DNA of 29,023 nucleotides, taken from positions 1-29,023 of IMG/VR virus record IMGVR_UViG_3300027721_000055, one strand, 5' to 3'. Of the stretch, positions 1,494-12,577 are shown piece after piece. The DNA comes from a virus. Below the pieces are notes generated by a model. It saw nothing but the letters and a program-made list of their open reading frames with translations. It ran no database searches and had not been told where the DNA came from. Made by a program: the position numbers and the translations under genes. Every line of letters starts with the position of its first letter. Positions within the stretch are counted from its first letter, which is position 1.

Positions 1494-3434
1494 ATGCCAA
1501 TCTCTCCCCTACCCCAAGCACCGTACAGGCAGGACCGGAAGATCTTTCCGACCCCGCTCGTCACGGATGTCTTGTTCAGCGAGATTCGCGACTGCACCCG
1601 CACCGAGTTTCCTGAATACGGAACCCCGCACCCTAACGCAACGAAGTGGCCGCACCACAAGCTGATCTTCATCAAGTCGGTTGACATCGAGCGCGACGGC
1701 TTGTTTGAGTTCTTCTACGCTGCGGATCGGGAGAACCAAGACCTTTATAATTACCAGTTCCAACAAGCGGACGTGGGCGGTACGAAGTTCGACTCGGTGG
1801 TTCGCACGTACGTCTCGGCCCGTTCCGACTTCTCCCCGACCAAGTACGCGATGGGCGCAGAAATGTCCAGCGACCCGAACGGCGTCTTTGAGGGCGTATA
1901 CGTGCTGTCAGAGTACAAGCAAGTAGACGCGCAAGAGCAAACCCTAAACTCGTTGTACGTTACTGAACAGCTCACGTACATCAAAAAGGTCACGCTCGTT
2001 GAAGCGTTGTACGACGAGCGAACTGGCCGGGGGAGCCAGAACAAGAAAATTGCTTTTTATCGGGGCGAGTACACTCCCGAGTACCCAAAGAATACGGCTG
2101 GTGCAATAACCATTGAAGACATCTTCGAAGACCCAGCGCACCCGTACTGGGGCCTGCAATCTGCACTGACTAATATTTTTAGGGCTGGTGAACAGCTTTC
2201 TGATAATTGGTTCGCTGTTCAAGAATCGTATATCTCGCCACCCGAATCTAGTAACGGTCCAACCAACCCAGCTAAACGTTTCGTGGTGACCCGACCGACG
2301 GCTTTCGTCACAGACGTTATTTTTGTAGAGACTGGCACGATGCCGGACCCTGTTCCTACCTACGGCTCGCCCCACTACGACACGACCCAGTGGCCCAACC
2401 ACAAGCTAAGCTCGATCAATCCCGCGTCGGGAGACCCTAGCGGGAGAATCTACGACTTTTATTACGTTGCGGACCGACCGTCTCAAGACCTCTACAACTT
2501 TCAATTTAGTCAGGCTGATATCGGCGGAATCAAGTTTGACTCGGTCGTTCGCACGTACGTGACGCCCAGAGCGGGCTACGTTCCTACGAATTACGTAATG
2601 GGTTCGGCAATGTCCAGCGCACCGAACGGGGTCTTTACCGGCACGTACGTGCTGTCCGAGTACAAGCAAACGGACGCACAAGACCCGATACTCAACTCGC
2701 TGTACGTCACCGAGCAGCTCACGTACGTCAAGAAAGAGTTGCTGGTACAGCACGATTATGACGACACCTTCGGCGCAAACCTAAAGACTATTCAGTTTTT
2801 GGCATACGCCACCGAAATCTTATCGGGCACTTCCACTGCGGCACAGTTATTCGCGTCCGGTTCTCCTTATTTTGGGGCTCAAGACAACGGCACCGTGCGT
2901 AGCGGAAAGCAACTCTCGGCAAAATGGTACGCCATTACGGAAGCTCAAGTTGTTCCATCGTTCATGCTGGGCGGCGGACGCACGTACTTCACCACAGTAA
3001 ACTACAGTTGGCCCGCAGAACTCGGGTACATCGATATCGATCTGTGGGAAAAAAGAGCCGGAGGCGATCAGAAATATATAAGACCGAATTATACAAAGAA
3101 CGCTTATAGCGGACCGTGTCGGGCCATGATCGTCGAAACTTTTTCTAGTTCGCCGACCGGAGGAAACACGGCCAAAGCGATGGAGCCTTTGGCTATTAAC
3201 ATTTCAAACCCTTATTTCTCTATTTCGATAGAACCGACTTTGCACACTTACCGGATCCTCGAGCTCTCAAACGGATCGACAGATCCAGAATTTGAACTTA
3301 CCAACGCGGAATACAGATTTCCGGCGACAATACCCGCCGCTCGTCCGCATCAGATTGTGGCATCCGACGAAGTGAAGCCTTTTCGTGGTGGCTACTTGCG
3401 TCAAATTACGACCGTTTACGCACCAACAACGTAA
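1494..3434 (+). CDS. Structural-type protein with internal ~249-residue duplication, function unknown
   Basis: I do not recognise a named family. The ATG at 1494 begins 1 bp after the fibre stop and is preferred to an upstream in-frame ATG at 1440 that would overlap the fibre gene by 50 bp. The protein is 646 aa. Two similar halves are visible: FDSVVRTYV, YVLSEYKQ, LNSLYVTEQLTY and QDLYNYQF/QDLYNFQF each occur twice, 249 codons apart. The last ~150 residues are not duplicated. There is no signal peptide or obvious membrane segment. Its place between the fibre gene and further virion-type genes suggests a virion or appendage component. Its stop overlaps the next start as TAATG. Confidence 0.75.
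   Translation: MPISPLPQAPYRQDRKIFPTPLVTDVLFSEIRDCTRTEFPEYGTPHPNATKWPHHKLIFIKSVDIERDGLFEFFYAADRENQDLYNYQFQQADVGGTKFDSVVRTYVSARSDFSPTKYAMGAEMSSDPNGVFEGVYVLSEYKQVDAQEQTLNSLYVTEQLTYIKKVTLVEALYDERTGRGSQNKKIAFYRGEYTPEYPKNTAGAITIEDIFEDPAHPYWGLQSALTNIFRAGEQLSDNWFAVQESYISPPESSNGPTNPAKRFVVTRPTAFVTDVIFVETGTMPDPVPTYGSPHYDTTQWPNHKLSSINPASGDPSGRIYDFYYVADRPSQDLYNFQFSQADIGGIKFDSVVRTYVTPRAGYVPTNYVMGSAMSSAPNGVFTGTYVLSEYKQTDAQDPILNSLYVTEQLTYVKKELLVQHDYDDTFGANLKTIQFLAYATEILSGTSTAAQLFASGSPYFGAQDNGTVRSGKQLSAKWYAITEAQVVPSFMLGGGRTYFTTVNYSWPAELGYIDIDLWEKRAGGDQKYIRPNYTKNAYSGPCRAMIVETFSSSPTGGNTAKAMEPLAINISNPYFSISIEPTLHTYRILELSNGSTDPEFELTNAEYRFPATIPAARPHQIVASDEVKPFRGGYLRQITTVYAPTT
1546..2745 (+). repeat. Two-copy intragenic duplication (period ~747 bp)
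   Basis: The segment around 1546-2010 recurs at about 2287-2745. For example GACTCGGT then GTTCGCACGTACGT is found at 1791 and again at 2538, a 747-bp offset. The copies have diverged at silent and coding sites, so the duplication is not recent. Confidence 0.75.
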
Positions 3435-4045
3435 TGCTGTACGACGTTATAAAGCCCCAAGGTGATCCCAGCTTCGGGGTACTGGCGTCGAGCAACTTCT
3501 CCCAAGGCTGGTCGGGCTCGGGCTCCCAAGGCGGCTCGGGCTCTGGCGTAACTTACGTTGAGCGCAGCCGCAGGCCCGCCCCCTCGGAACTAGAGCTCCC
3601 GTTCATTCTTTCTGTAAAACAAGAAGAATTGGGCTGGAAGTACAATGTCCGGCCCGGGTCCATCACTAACGGCACCAACGGCGGCCCGTTCGCAATATCG
3701 GGGCTCGACGAGTTTACTGCTTTTACCGGTGAAAAATTCATAATCGCGGAGGCGACGGTCACGTCCAGCCCGTTCGAGATCGACAACGTTGGCTTCGAAA
3801 TTAAAGCTGTAGTCGAAGAGGACACCAACGAGGTCAAGTTTGACGACGACGACAATCAAGAGAAGCTGCGGCTTTTGATCGGCAAGTTGGTGGTAGTACC
3901 CAACTCTGACCCGGTTGCGTACACACCGCTGCAAGCGTCATTCACATCTTACAAGACCATCGTAAGTTTCCACAACGGGGTTCCCGTCTATGTTCTTCAA
4001 GCCGCTCCATCACACCAGTCGATCCTAGTCCTACCGGAACCCTAA
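3434..4045 (+). CDS. Unknown structural-region protein with Gly/Ser-rich N-terminus
   Basis: The protein is 203 aa. The start ATG shares its A with the previous stop (TAATG), so translation is probably coupled. Residues ~22-38 form a flexible Gly/Ser-rich stretch (WSGSGSQGGSGSG), then comes a possible beta-rich body with an acidic cluster (EVKFDDDDNQEK). It has no recognised domain, membrane segment or catalytic motif. Position suggests a minor virion or appendage protein. The DNA is markedly GC-richer than the next gene. Confidence 0.65.
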   Translation: MLYDVIKPQGDPSFGVLASSNFSQGWSGSGSQGGSGSGVTYVERSRRPAPSELELPFILSVKQEELGWKYNVRPGSITNGTNGGPFAISGLDEFTAFTGEKFIIAEATVTSSPFEIDNVGFEIKAVVEEDTNEVKFDDDDNQEKLRLLIGKLVVVPNSDPVAYTPLQASFTSYKTIVSFHNGVPVYVLQAAPSHQSILVLPEP

Positions 4046-9880: not shown

Positions 9881-12577
9881 TTATTTGGTATAAATTTTAA
9901 CGACGTGGCCTTCGGCGTCCAGCGGGATGTCTGGGATCCACGGGGGTGGGGTTCGCATGATCTGGGTGACGTCGGCCAGGGTCCGCTCAGCGTCCCGATC
10001 GAGGCACTCGATCACGACTTCATCGTGAACGTGCAAGATGATCTTGTGGCCCGCTTCTTCGATCTGGCGCAAGTGGTAGCAGAAGACGTCCCGGGCAAGG
10101 CTCTGGCTACAGTTATGGGCTATTAAGAGTTGGTCTTGGCTTCCGCGCACGACGAATCTATTTTTAGGTCCGCAGTCTCTGATGTCGAATACCTGTTTGA
10201 ATAACTTGGTTTCAAGGTGCTCGCTATTTCGAAGGATACCCCAGCATTTATTCTGAATAAAAGCGTCGATCGCGCAATTCCATTTTTGTCGGATTGATCT
10301 AAGACCCAACCGGGAATTCGTGAGCGTCGAGTATTCCGCATATTTTCCTGATGGGTTGACCATCGACAGTTTTCGAAAGAGTAGCCCTTGTTGTTGTCTA
10401 TGCGATCTAGGCAAAGTCCTTCCAACCATGACGGGTACATTTGATCCCAAAATGCCTGAAATGAATATTGCCATTCTGGACATACTGTAATTCCACGACC
10501 TCCGTAGTTCTCCCAAGCCTGATGGCTTGGTAAACGACACCGGTCGTTCATTGATCGCCACACCGCAAAAAGTTTGTGTTTGCTTTTCTTGTGCGTAGAC
10601 TTTTGGTCCGAAATTTTCGACGCAAGTAGTGGACAACTTTTTGAGCAAAACTTTCCAGTTATGAGCTCTCCGGATAAACGATTCACTATTTTTCCACAAT
10701 CGCATTTTAGTTCCCAAATAATATTTCGTCTGTGTTTTCCGATTGGTCTTACCGCTAAGCAGGTCCCAAATTTTTTTCCAGTATAATCTTTTGCTTTGTT
10801 TGTTAACTCCATGCGGTAAACGTACCAAACTTAGTTCTAAGTGTCTAGCTTTTTCAGCAGGAACCCAACTATCTTCGATCAAGAATTGATGGTCTGGCGT
10901 GCATGTAATCCCGTGGCATTCAATAACTTCTTGGATACCCGAGTTGATTAAGCCCTTATGTTTAACAAAGTTTAAGCCATCCCAAAGCTCGTCGTCTAAG
11001 GACACATCTTGAATCTGGACCCACCCGCGTTGTTTCGATAAAACATTAGTTTCACCAATTAAGCAGTTCTCCGTAAGCATTCCATGCCACGGGCGAACCA
11101 GCATCGGCCTTCCGTTCCGGACCATCGTGCACACCAGAGCGTCAGCCGTTTTGTTGACCCCTTTGTAGTGCATGGCATTTCCGCTCGGAAGCTCAACTCG
11201 GTACTCCCCAGACTTGGAGGCCATCTTGATCTCCCGCTCAAACTTGCGCCAGAGCTCGACAACCTTGTTCATCTTGGTCTGGTAAAGCCGAACACTTTTT
11301 GTGGCCTCGTCCAGATCGCACTTCATGATCATCGCGTACTTCTTTGCGGAAGCGCCGTATCCGCACCCGAGAACCATTCCCTTTACGAGTAGGCGCAGGC
11401 CCGGATCCAATGACTTCATCGAACCTTTATCCTTTGACCAAAGGCCAAACCGGATCGCGAACGCCTCGTACATGTCTTCCGTGTTTCGGATCTCGTTCAA
11501 GGTGTCCCAGTCCTTCGCCAGCCAGCACAAGGTGCGAACTTCGATCTGGCTCAAGTCAACCACGACCAGGCTCGACCCTTCAGGACTCCTGATTTGGGAA
11601 CGAAGGTCCACGCCGAACATTTCTTTGCGCGGTAAGTTTTGCAGGTTCAGGTTTCCGCCGGAGCCCGAGAACCTCTTGGTGTGCGCTCCACAATACATCA
11701 AGCCACCGTAGTACCGGTTGTCAATCGAGCCCTTCTCGAAAGCCTCAACTTTCTTCAAAAGCGCGTTGATCCTGCGGTAACTGCGGACGGCGTAGACCCA
11801 CGGGAAAGTCTCAGCGTGCAGGTCGAGCCACGCTTCGCATTCCTCATCACCCATAGCCCAACTCTTTGGCGGGGCAATCCCAGCAGCGCGGCACGCTTTA
11901 TTTGCTTCGGTCCGGCTGAGCAAGGCCCCCGAGTCTTTCCACGGGATAGCCTCGTGCGCTTCAAAAAGTGAAATCCTGAGCTTCGCGGCATTTTGAGAAA
12001 TGAGCTCTTCGTCTACCGGCAAACCGCGACGGCAGATTTTGCGGGTGTGTGCGCTGTAGTAACGCTCGTACTCGGGCCACTGGCTTTCCAGTTCTTGCCA
12101 AAGCTTCAAACACCAACGGCTGTCGTCCAGAGCGTAAGCTGTGACTTCGGCTTTGAACTCGGGGTCCATGAGGTCCCAGTCCAAACCCTTCATGTTGTCC
12201 CGGGTTTCTTTGCTGAGTTCGACCTTGAAGATATCTTTAACAGCGTTCTTCAGGGCCCGAGGCTTTCCTAGAAAGGCTGTGAGGTCTGCCGTGCAATGCC
12301 ACTCCGCGTAGTCTGCCGAAGCCCACCAGCCTTGCTCGATCCCATACAGGTACAAGCTTTCATCGAAGGACGCGTTGTGGCTCAGTACGCGTTGACCGGC
12401 CAGCTTTGACCAATCAAATTTGGCGGGATCGCCGCACCATTCATAGCCGTCGTCCGCAACGACAGAGACCATGTAGGCGTCAAATTTAGGGTGAGCGAAG
12501 TATCCTCGGGGTCCGTAGACCGAGACAGAACATTCTTTATCGTAGTAGGATTCGAAATCGACAGCGTAAGTAATCAT
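9881..12577 (-). CDS. Family A DNA polymerase with 3'-5' exonuclease, interrupted by an intein
   Basis: The precursor is 898 aa and should splice to 580 aa. The N-terminus is a DnaQ-like proofreading exonuclease: D7/E9 (AVDFESY), N68/D72 (SHNASFD) and Y148-D152 (YALDD). The polymerase shows motif A (VVVDLSQIEVR, D341), motif B (RLLVKGMVLGCGYG, R395/K399/Y407) and motif C (HVHDEV, D852). The segment between B and C is broken after WHGMLTEN (residue 504) by a 318-aa intein, and the protein resumes at C823 (CSQSLARD). It is the phage replicase. The start ATG is 11 nt downstream of a hairpin terminator. Splicing is required, since the insertion splits a conserved region needed for the palm. Confidence 0.92.
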   Translation of the reverse strand: MITYAVDFESYYDKECSVSVYGPRGYFAHPKFDAYMVSVVADDGYEWCGDPAKFDWSKLAGQRVLSHNASFDESLYLYGIEQGWWASADYAEWHCTADLTAFLGKPRALKNAVKDIFKVELSKETRDNMKGLDWDLMDPEFKAEVTAYALDDSRWCLKLWQELESQWPEYERYYSAHTRKICRRGLPVDEELISQNAAKLRISLFEAHEAIPWKDSGALLSRTEANKACRAAGIAPPKSWAMGDEECEAWLDLHAETFPWVYAVRSYRRINALLKKVEAFEKGSIDNRYYGGLMYCGAHTKRFSGSGGNLNLQNLPRKEMFGVDLRSQIRSPEGSSLVVVDLSQIEVRTLCWLAKDWDTLNEIRNTEDMYEAFAIRFGLWSKDKGSMKSLDPGLRLLVKGMVLGCGYGASAKKYAMIMKCDLDEATKSVRLYQTKMNKVVELWRKFEREIKMASKSGEYRVELPSGNAMHYKGVNKTADALVCTMVRNGRPMLVRPWHGMLTENCLIGETNVLSKQRGWVQIQDVSLDDELWDGLNFVKHKGLINSGIQEVIECHGITCTPDHQFLIEDSWVPAEKARHLELSLVRLPHGVNKQSKRLYWKKIWDLLSGKTNRKTQTKYYLGTKMRLWKNSESFIRRAHNWKVLLKKLSTTCVENFGPKVYAQEKQTQTFCGVAINERPVSFTKPSGLGELRRSWNYSMSRMAIFISGILGSNVPVMVGRTLPRSHRQQQGLLFRKLSMVNPSGKYAEYSTLTNSRLGLRSIRQKWNCAIDAFIQNKCWGILRNSEHLETKLFKQVFDIRDCGPKNRFVVRGSQDQLLIAHNCSQSLARDVFCYHLRQIEEAGHKIILHVHDEVVIECLDRDAERTLADVTQIMRTPPPWIPDIPLDAEGHVVKIYTK
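10123..10812 (-). CDS. HNH homing endonuclease nested in the intein in the +1 frame
   Basis: The protein is 229 aa, same strand as the polymerase but shifted by one base; the ATG begins at the second base of polymerase codon 589. It is complete: a zinc-ribbon-like N-terminal part (DYTGKKFG; C37/C39 and C56/C60), an HNH core of the YGGRGI type (NYGGRGITVC at 102-111, LDRIDNNKGY at 135-144, FENCRW at 146-151), and a C-terminal helix-turn-helix (DKNGIARSTLLFRINAG, ~175-191). Such proteins cut DNA at sites lacking the element. The stop lies 11 bp before the intein end. A stop codon about 9 codons upstream rules out a longer frame. There is no SD; a promoter-like sequence sits 6 nt before the ATG. 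Confidence 0.88.
   Translation of the reverse strand: MELTNKAKDYTGKKFGTCLAVRPIGKHRRNIIWELKCDCGKIVNRLSGELITGKFCSKSCPLLASKISDQKSTHKKSKHKLFAVWRSMNDRCRLPSHQAWENYGGRGITVCPEWQYSFQAFWDQMYPSWLEGLCLDRIDNNKGYSFENCRWSTHQENMRNTRRSRIPGWVLDQSDKNGIARSTLLFRINAGVSFEIASTLKPSYSNRYSTSETADLKIDSSCAEAKTNS
10819..10847 (-). promoter_or_regulatory. Promoter-like sequence ahead of the nested HNH gene
   Basis: On the minus strand TAGACA (10847-10842), a 17-bp spacer and TACGTT (10824-10819), then 6 nt and the ATG. The -35 matches consensus at 5 of 6 positions, the -10 at only 3. The geometry equals that of the 5538 promoter. The start region reads GGTACGTTTACCGCATG, nearly the same as the sequence before the gene at 23740. 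Confidence 0.35.

Follow-up and report, generated by a model that had tools for sequence, protein, structure and literature searches.

In the textbook arrangement, the homing nuclease of an intein is one of its in-frame domains. Inteins with an in-frame HNH (for example Dalgaard 1997, cited in PMC5050341) have a Hint splicing domain with the HNH between blocks B and F, and nuclease and splicing domain form one polypeptide in one frame. In fractured genes (Dassa 2009; MIJ3 PolB, PMC6892783), a separate HNH gene lies between the two intein halves. The nearest published case to the locus described here is the ShiLan domain, or 'hidden HNH' (PMC11855218, 2025), an insertion in a mycobacteriophage DNA methylase that is open in-frame in the phage gene and encodes a complete HNH nuclease in another frame. 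Its disjunct distribution suggests homing. Neither splicing motifs nor an intein structure were found by its authors, who exclude an intein and propose that the methylase retains the insert (PMC11855218).

The polymerase insert and its nested HNH ORF

The window, which is the whole 29,023-nucleotide stretch of viral DNA analysed, contains on its minus strand (as for all features below) an intein-interrupted family A DNA polymerase ORF of 898 codons (9881..12577; Pfam DNA_pol_A 2.6e-23, phrog_17 1.4e-60). The N-extein (11066..12577) ends with GMLTEN and the C-extein (9881..10111, stop codon included) begins CSQSLARDVF. Between them lies an intein of 318 codons (10112..11065; residues 505-822 of the ORF) that starts with Cys1, ends with His-Asn and is followed by Cys+1. 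Its N-terminal splicing region, with blocks A and B and the TPDH motif, spans 10814..11065, and its C-terminal region, with blocks F and G (VFDIRDCGPKNRFVV...LIAHN), spans 10112..10204. All class 1 intein residues are present (C1, TPDH as TxxH, HN and C+1), and C1, T56, H59 and N318 are invariant in an alignment of 70 related inteins, in which the C-terminal region is also conserved. According to the ORF listing, the polymerase frame has no stop through the whole intein; the third frame is packed with stops. A Pfam search of the window returned neither an HNH nor an intein match, and a profile search matched the intein N region to solved inteins.

AlphaFold2 (AF2) modelling of the intein gave pLDDT values mostly of 94-98 for residues 1-80 and 288-318 (94-98 for 1-70, about 95 for 288-318) and near 40 for residues 110-263. 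The top PDB matches of the model were the Ssp DnaB, Npu DnaE and Mtu RecA inteins (probability 1.00; best E 3e-3 with the disordered middle included), and every listed match was to an intein or a related Hint domain. A Hint/intein fold is thus predicted for the joined N and C regions, around a disordered middle. We consider it very likely, as part of the whole reading proposed below, that the insert is a class 1 cis-splicing mini-intein; its splicing activity is inferred.

Within the intein, an ORF of 229 aa with an ATG start (10123..10812) encodes an HNH-type endonuclease, as supported by the ORF listing, PHROGs matches, codon shuffles, pN/pS and AF2. The ATG lies at intein offset 253 (253 mod 3 = 1), which places the ORF in the +1 frame relative to the intein, and its stop codon is inside the intein. 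The HNH frame is closed across most of the N-terminal splicing region, with its last stop upstream of the ATG at 10831..10833. The protein has N-terminal zinc-ribbon-like cysteines (10633..10704; C37, C39, C56 and C60 are invariant in the HNH alignment, and some members have CapR zinc-ribbon matches), an HNH core (10357..10506, YGGRGI...LDRIDNNKGYSFENCRW; PHROGs, HNH alignment and AF2 model) and a C-terminal helix-turn-helix (10216..10305; model helices 170-177, 181-189 and 194-199, with HTH Pfam matches in relatives). Its AF2 model is confident (mean pLDDT 85.8), dropping to 48-61 past residue 200; the tail beyond the helix-turn-helix overlaps block F and is predicted to be disordered. The first-pass annotation of this locus had claimed that the polymerase frame stays open through the intein with all splicing blocks and that a complete 229-aa HNH protein lies out of frame inside it. 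Both claims held at these coordinates, and its description was accurate.

PHROGs confirmed the HNH family, with matches to the HNH endonucleases phrog_374 (E=1e-52) and phrog_3377 (1e-40) and also to phrog 2081. The 229-aa protein matched no Pfam HNH model, a PDB sequence search with it found no relative, and Foldseek of its model against the PDB gave only noise. The assignment of nuclease activity consequently rests on PHROGs homology and the motif. Because the core sequence is LDRID, without the His of canonical HNH families, the catalytic chemistry also remains unverified. We therefore call the protein HNH-type by PHROGs homology only; its nuclease activity is inferred without cleavage data and is the weakest link in our interpretation.

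Recurrence of the arrangement and selection on the two frames

A polymerase search of annotated phages revealed the same +1 arrangement in APSE-1, Caulobacter phage GB2A and Shewanella phage SFCi1. Streptococcus phage Javan113 is also +1, but with another polymerase site and a different HNH, and an independent viral contig (L007) has the same frame shift in an intein 76% identical to that of the window. Scanning viral contigs with the window intein sequence alone recovered one relative, and we replaced this with a degenerate C-terminal motif and an N-block alignment. These two HNH-blind scans (intein C-terminal motif and intein N block), together with one HNH scan, yielded about 200 loci. After deduplication, 113 loci had an HNH ORF inside the intein, a set that includes the window and close relatives such as APSE-2. 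The HNH was in the +1 frame in 91 and the +2 frame in 22. An in-frame endonuclease in homologues had been set beforehand as a refutation and was found in none (0/113). The C-terminal splicing block was in frame with no intervening stop in 108 of the 113 (the window and 107 others), and in all 108 the HNH stop codon lay inside the intein. The HNH-blind scans alone, before deduplication, gave 79 +1 loci, 21 +2 loci, 17 mini-inteins and no in-frame case; the remaining loci from the scans were a few contig ends and split inteins. As the search profiles derive from this intein family, in-frame HNH inteins of other families are unsampled. A C-terminal motif scan of bacterial genomes returned mostly chance matches and one real case (L237, +2).

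The N-exteins of 107 inserts are mostly polymerase A (88 match phrog_17); SNF2-type helicases also occur, as do single cases, a DnaB-like helicase among them. The nested +2 HNH of Jerseyvirus occurs at ≥80% identity in about 163 phage records (about 160 Salmonella Jerseyvirus genomes). By recurrence, these results show that the arrangement in the window is not peculiar to one genome but belongs to a widespread class, inferred from sequence, that uses two frames. Two Salmonella phage records carry further features. Salmonella phage vB_SenS-Ent1 (L276) has a second intein, with a LAGLIDADG endonuclease, annotated in its helicase gp34. In Salmonella phage SS3e (L277, NC_006940.2), the N-terminal part of the polymerase, the HNH and the C-terminal part of the polymerase are annotated as three ORFs; compared with sibling phages the record has small indels, which point to sequencing errors that by chance exposed the nested HNH.

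The first-pass annotation had put the odds of a random open frame of this length near 1e-5 with uniform codons. That estimate is naive, and a stronger control is to shuffle synonymous codons within each HNH, retaining protein and codon usage. In the window, the intein frame across the HNH has no stops against 12.1 expected, and none of 2000 shuffles was stop-free. Across the HNH of 82 +1 loci, the intein frame has no stops against 507 expected, and across that of 21 +2 loci none against 56 (about 560 expected in both sets). The third frame of the same loci contains 874 stops (+1) and 206 stops (+2). Among 72 HNH ORFs of the same family outside any detected intein, the corresponding frame has a mean of 13.2 stops; five of the 72 are stop-free in that frame, and four of these five are nested copies truncated by a contig end.

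Comparison of the window with L007 showed how selection is divided. pN/pS is 0.12 and 0.10 in the exteins and 0.14 in the splicing N block, and in the overlap it is 0.17 for the HNH frame and 3.71 for the intein frame. Differences at HNH codon positions 1, 2 and 3 number 16, 10 and 40. The pattern is the same in about 40 other pairs and in three cultured Salmonella Jerseyvirus phages with the +2 frame. Within the overlap, therefore, only the HNH frame is constrained as amino acids, and the intein frame is constrained merely to lack stops: given this partition in the pN/pS and codon-position data, the middle of the intein lacks protein-level conservation in its own frame and is just kept stop-free. 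Spacer composition barely departs from shuffles, and we claim no selection on the spacer beyond stop avoidance. Lower synonymous divergence in the HNH stretch between the window and L007 was considered and dropped, being inconsistent in other pairs. Intein identity exceeds extein identity in the same comparison, which we do not take as proof of transfer. The proposal that both frames are selected thus held in a refined form, with amino-acid-level selection on the HNH frame of the overlap and selection for stop absence on the intein frame. Of the outcomes that would have counted against it, frequent stops in the HNH frame of homologues were not seen (their HNH frames are largely intact), and an absence of purifying selection on that frame is contradicted by its pN/pS.

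Natural variants, expression and a proposed mechanism

Intein-less relatives show the insertion site directly. L208 and others carry the polymerase of the window without the intein, reading GMLTEN|CSQSLARD. The intein is in frame with its host protein at a conserved host site and is missing from some relatives. Over the 250 nt that directly precede the site, the polymerases of L007 (intein-plus) and L208 (intein-minus) share 95-98% identity; identity is 93-100% beyond the site but 70-90% over most of the remaining N-extein. This tract of high identity flanking the site could possibly reflect co-conversion or recombination.

The nuclease can be lost without disrupting the intein. L059 and L061 are near-identical phages with near-identical flanks and identical splicing regions, and L059 lacks 531 nt (177 codons) of the HNH by an exact deletion that leaves the intein/polymerase frame open. 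Each (L059, 4001-4405; L061, 4001-4936) also has a second intein-like match upstream (3080-3619). Mini-inteins are dispersed over the intein tree, which argues for repeated HNH loss. In the HNH tree, most nested +1 copies fall in one supported clade of 75; the nested +1 and +2 labels require 4 and 3 changes, respectively, and supported branches force at least 3 and at least 1. Because the labels need several changes on this tree, nesting is not one frozen accident. Nested HNHs have also diverged deeply, being about 35-45% identical.

A start codon is found at or near the start of the HNH domain in nearly all loci, and in the main +1 group an ATG or GTG recurs at the same position. The start is often preceded by a Shine-Dalgarno (SD)-like stretch formed by E-x-G-W codons of the intein itself (for example GAGGAGGGCTGGAAAA GTG). 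SD strength is somewhat above that of synonymous shuffles (p=4e-4 for +1, 6e-3 for +2), a real but modest effect. The HNH start in the window has no SD (dG -2.9). Most checked genes of the window phage also lack one, suggesting a host not reliant on SD. Internal initiation is our favoured route to the HNH protein, but since the SD evidence is modest relative to synonymous shuffles it is only inferred, and with no expression data it remains unproven.

The reading we consider very likely is that of a mini-intein with an open spacer in the protein frame and a complete nuclease made from an internal start in the other frame; within it, splicing, internal initiation, cleavage and homing are all inferred. 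It builds on what the sequence data show: two frames that are both open and conserved, selection divided between them, a predicted intein fold, and relatives whose site is empty. Translation in the polymerase frame would give a precursor whose folded splicing domain is broken up by a spacer of about 200 residues, unconserved and probably disordered, and the intein would then excise itself to restore the polymerase. Other ribosomes would start at the internal ATG (10812) to make free nuclease, which may cut intein-less polymerase genes at TEN|CSQ, and repair of the cut gene would copy in the intein along with the nuclease gene. Selection would keep the nuclease at the amino-acid level in its own frame and the polymerase frame just free of stops. 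That the nuclease is a separate protein conferring mobility, as first proposed, remains an inference as to both separate translation and homing; homing is supported only indirectly, by presence/absence polymorphism of the intein, without cleavage data.

Several alternatives would account for some of these observations. Programmed ribosomal frameshifting from the polymerase/intein frame, producing an N-extein-intein-HNH fusion instead of internal initiation, is unlikely. The HNH frame is open briefly before the domain (18 nt from the last stop to the ATG in the window), and a shift there would enter the HNH. However, start codons occur at or near the domain start almost everywhere and SD strength exceeds that of shuffles; one type of shift would not serve both the +1 and +2 frames, and the fusion would use up polymerase. 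There is even less support for the HNH being a recent insertion or decaying passenger whose overlap is accidental, with neither product of importance. Loss or truncation of the HNH in some copies (the scattered mini-inteins, and a stop in the N-terminal part of L106) fits this idea, but the homing cycle itself predicts periodic loss, and purifying selection on the HNH frame in about 40 pairs, strict stop avoidance at more than 100 loci and the deep divergence of nested HNHs argue against it.

Two further explanations can be all but set aside. Sequencing or assembly indels might have displaced an ordinary in-frame HNH-intein fusion, and the SS3e record does have small indels that split its annotation. 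This would nevertheless require two compensating indels at the same places in more than 100 independent contigs and in well-sequenced phages (APSE-1, vB_SenS-Ent1), and the N and C splicing blocks share one frame on either side of the HNH; recurrence in independent contigs and phages rules out an indel joining the frames, the remaining refutation envisaged at the outset. Alternatively, the insert might be a group I intron with an HNH ORF, as in the SPO1 or Pf-WMP3 polymerase genes, its intein-likeness being fortuitous. HNH-bearing group I introns are common in phage polymerase genes (see also PMC3428280), but 9881-12577 has no Rfam match even at E 1, and the polymerase frame runs open through an insert with Cys1, TxxH, HN, Cys+1 and the predicted intein fold.

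The overprinted mini-intein thus remains our preferred reading, and split members of the same family allow it to be extended. In four loci (L066, L075, L100 and L104) the intein is split: the HNH lies between its halves, and its C half restarts at an ATG of its own. Another split intein of this family (L119:4001-5100) has a GIY-YIG-like ORF (GIYRIKNTRTGAVYIGQ...) in the +1 frame between its halves, and its C half also restarts at an ATG. The coexistence of contiguous nested and split forms in one family suggests that overprinting precedes fracturing, but the direction is unproven. A bolder reading, which we regard as about as probable as not, is that overprinted inteins are both a widespread, repeatedly formed class of phage mobile element and the stage that gives rise to natural split inteins. 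In that case, the intein frame would gain a stop, the C half would restart at an internal ATG, and splicing would proceed in trans.

Relation to known systems and significance

Parts of this arrangement are already present in sequence records. GenBank annotates P46 (HNH) inside P45 (polymerase) of APSE-1, a member of the same class, and the APSE records examined mention no intein. The record of the Jerseyvirus vB_SenS-Ent1, also of this class, describes an 'intein-containing DNA polymerase' with an intein 'encoding splicing domains' and leaves the HNH unmentioned. We found no text joining the GenBank intein and HNH annotations, nor any report of an out-of-frame nuclease in a contiguous intein in the open-access literature searched; subscription papers, InBase and preprints were outside the scope of the search. 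We conclude that this is a real, widespread and apparently undescribed variant of the homing intein, whose function is inferred and for which an earlier description cannot be excluded.

In 113/113 nuclease-bearing deduplicated loci found, the nuclease of this intein family is a separate gene whose frame overlaps that of the intein, and the arrangement spans two frames, several host genes and several polymerase sites. This suggests that such an intein needs just an open, stop-free spacer between its halves. The family provides a clean case of overprinting with partitioned selection and suggests a concrete way in which natural split inteins, of unclear origin, could arise. Intein surveys restricted to the host frame miss such nucleases and miscall these elements as nuclease-less. 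The +2 version in about 160 sequenced Salmonella Jerseyvirus phages, partly annotated as intein-containing already, provides testable material.

The free-standing phage HNHs of PHROGs 374 and 3377 belong to the same protein family as the HNH of the window, but they average 13 stops in the frame that is stop-free in the nested copies. Like the ShiLan domain, the window insert is open in its host gene and holds a complete HNH in another frame; unlike it, the insert has all splicing blocks and a predicted intein fold, and thus does not qualify as ShiLan-type. It shares the Hint domain and the position of the HNH with in-frame HNH inteins, but in this family nuclease and splicing domain would be two proteins from overlapping frames. 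The polymerase ORF of the window is continuous and so does not meet the criterion for a split intein, which the four HNH-bearing split loci do. In contrast to fractured genes, the window and 107 other loci are contiguous, are read through in frame and would splice in cis.
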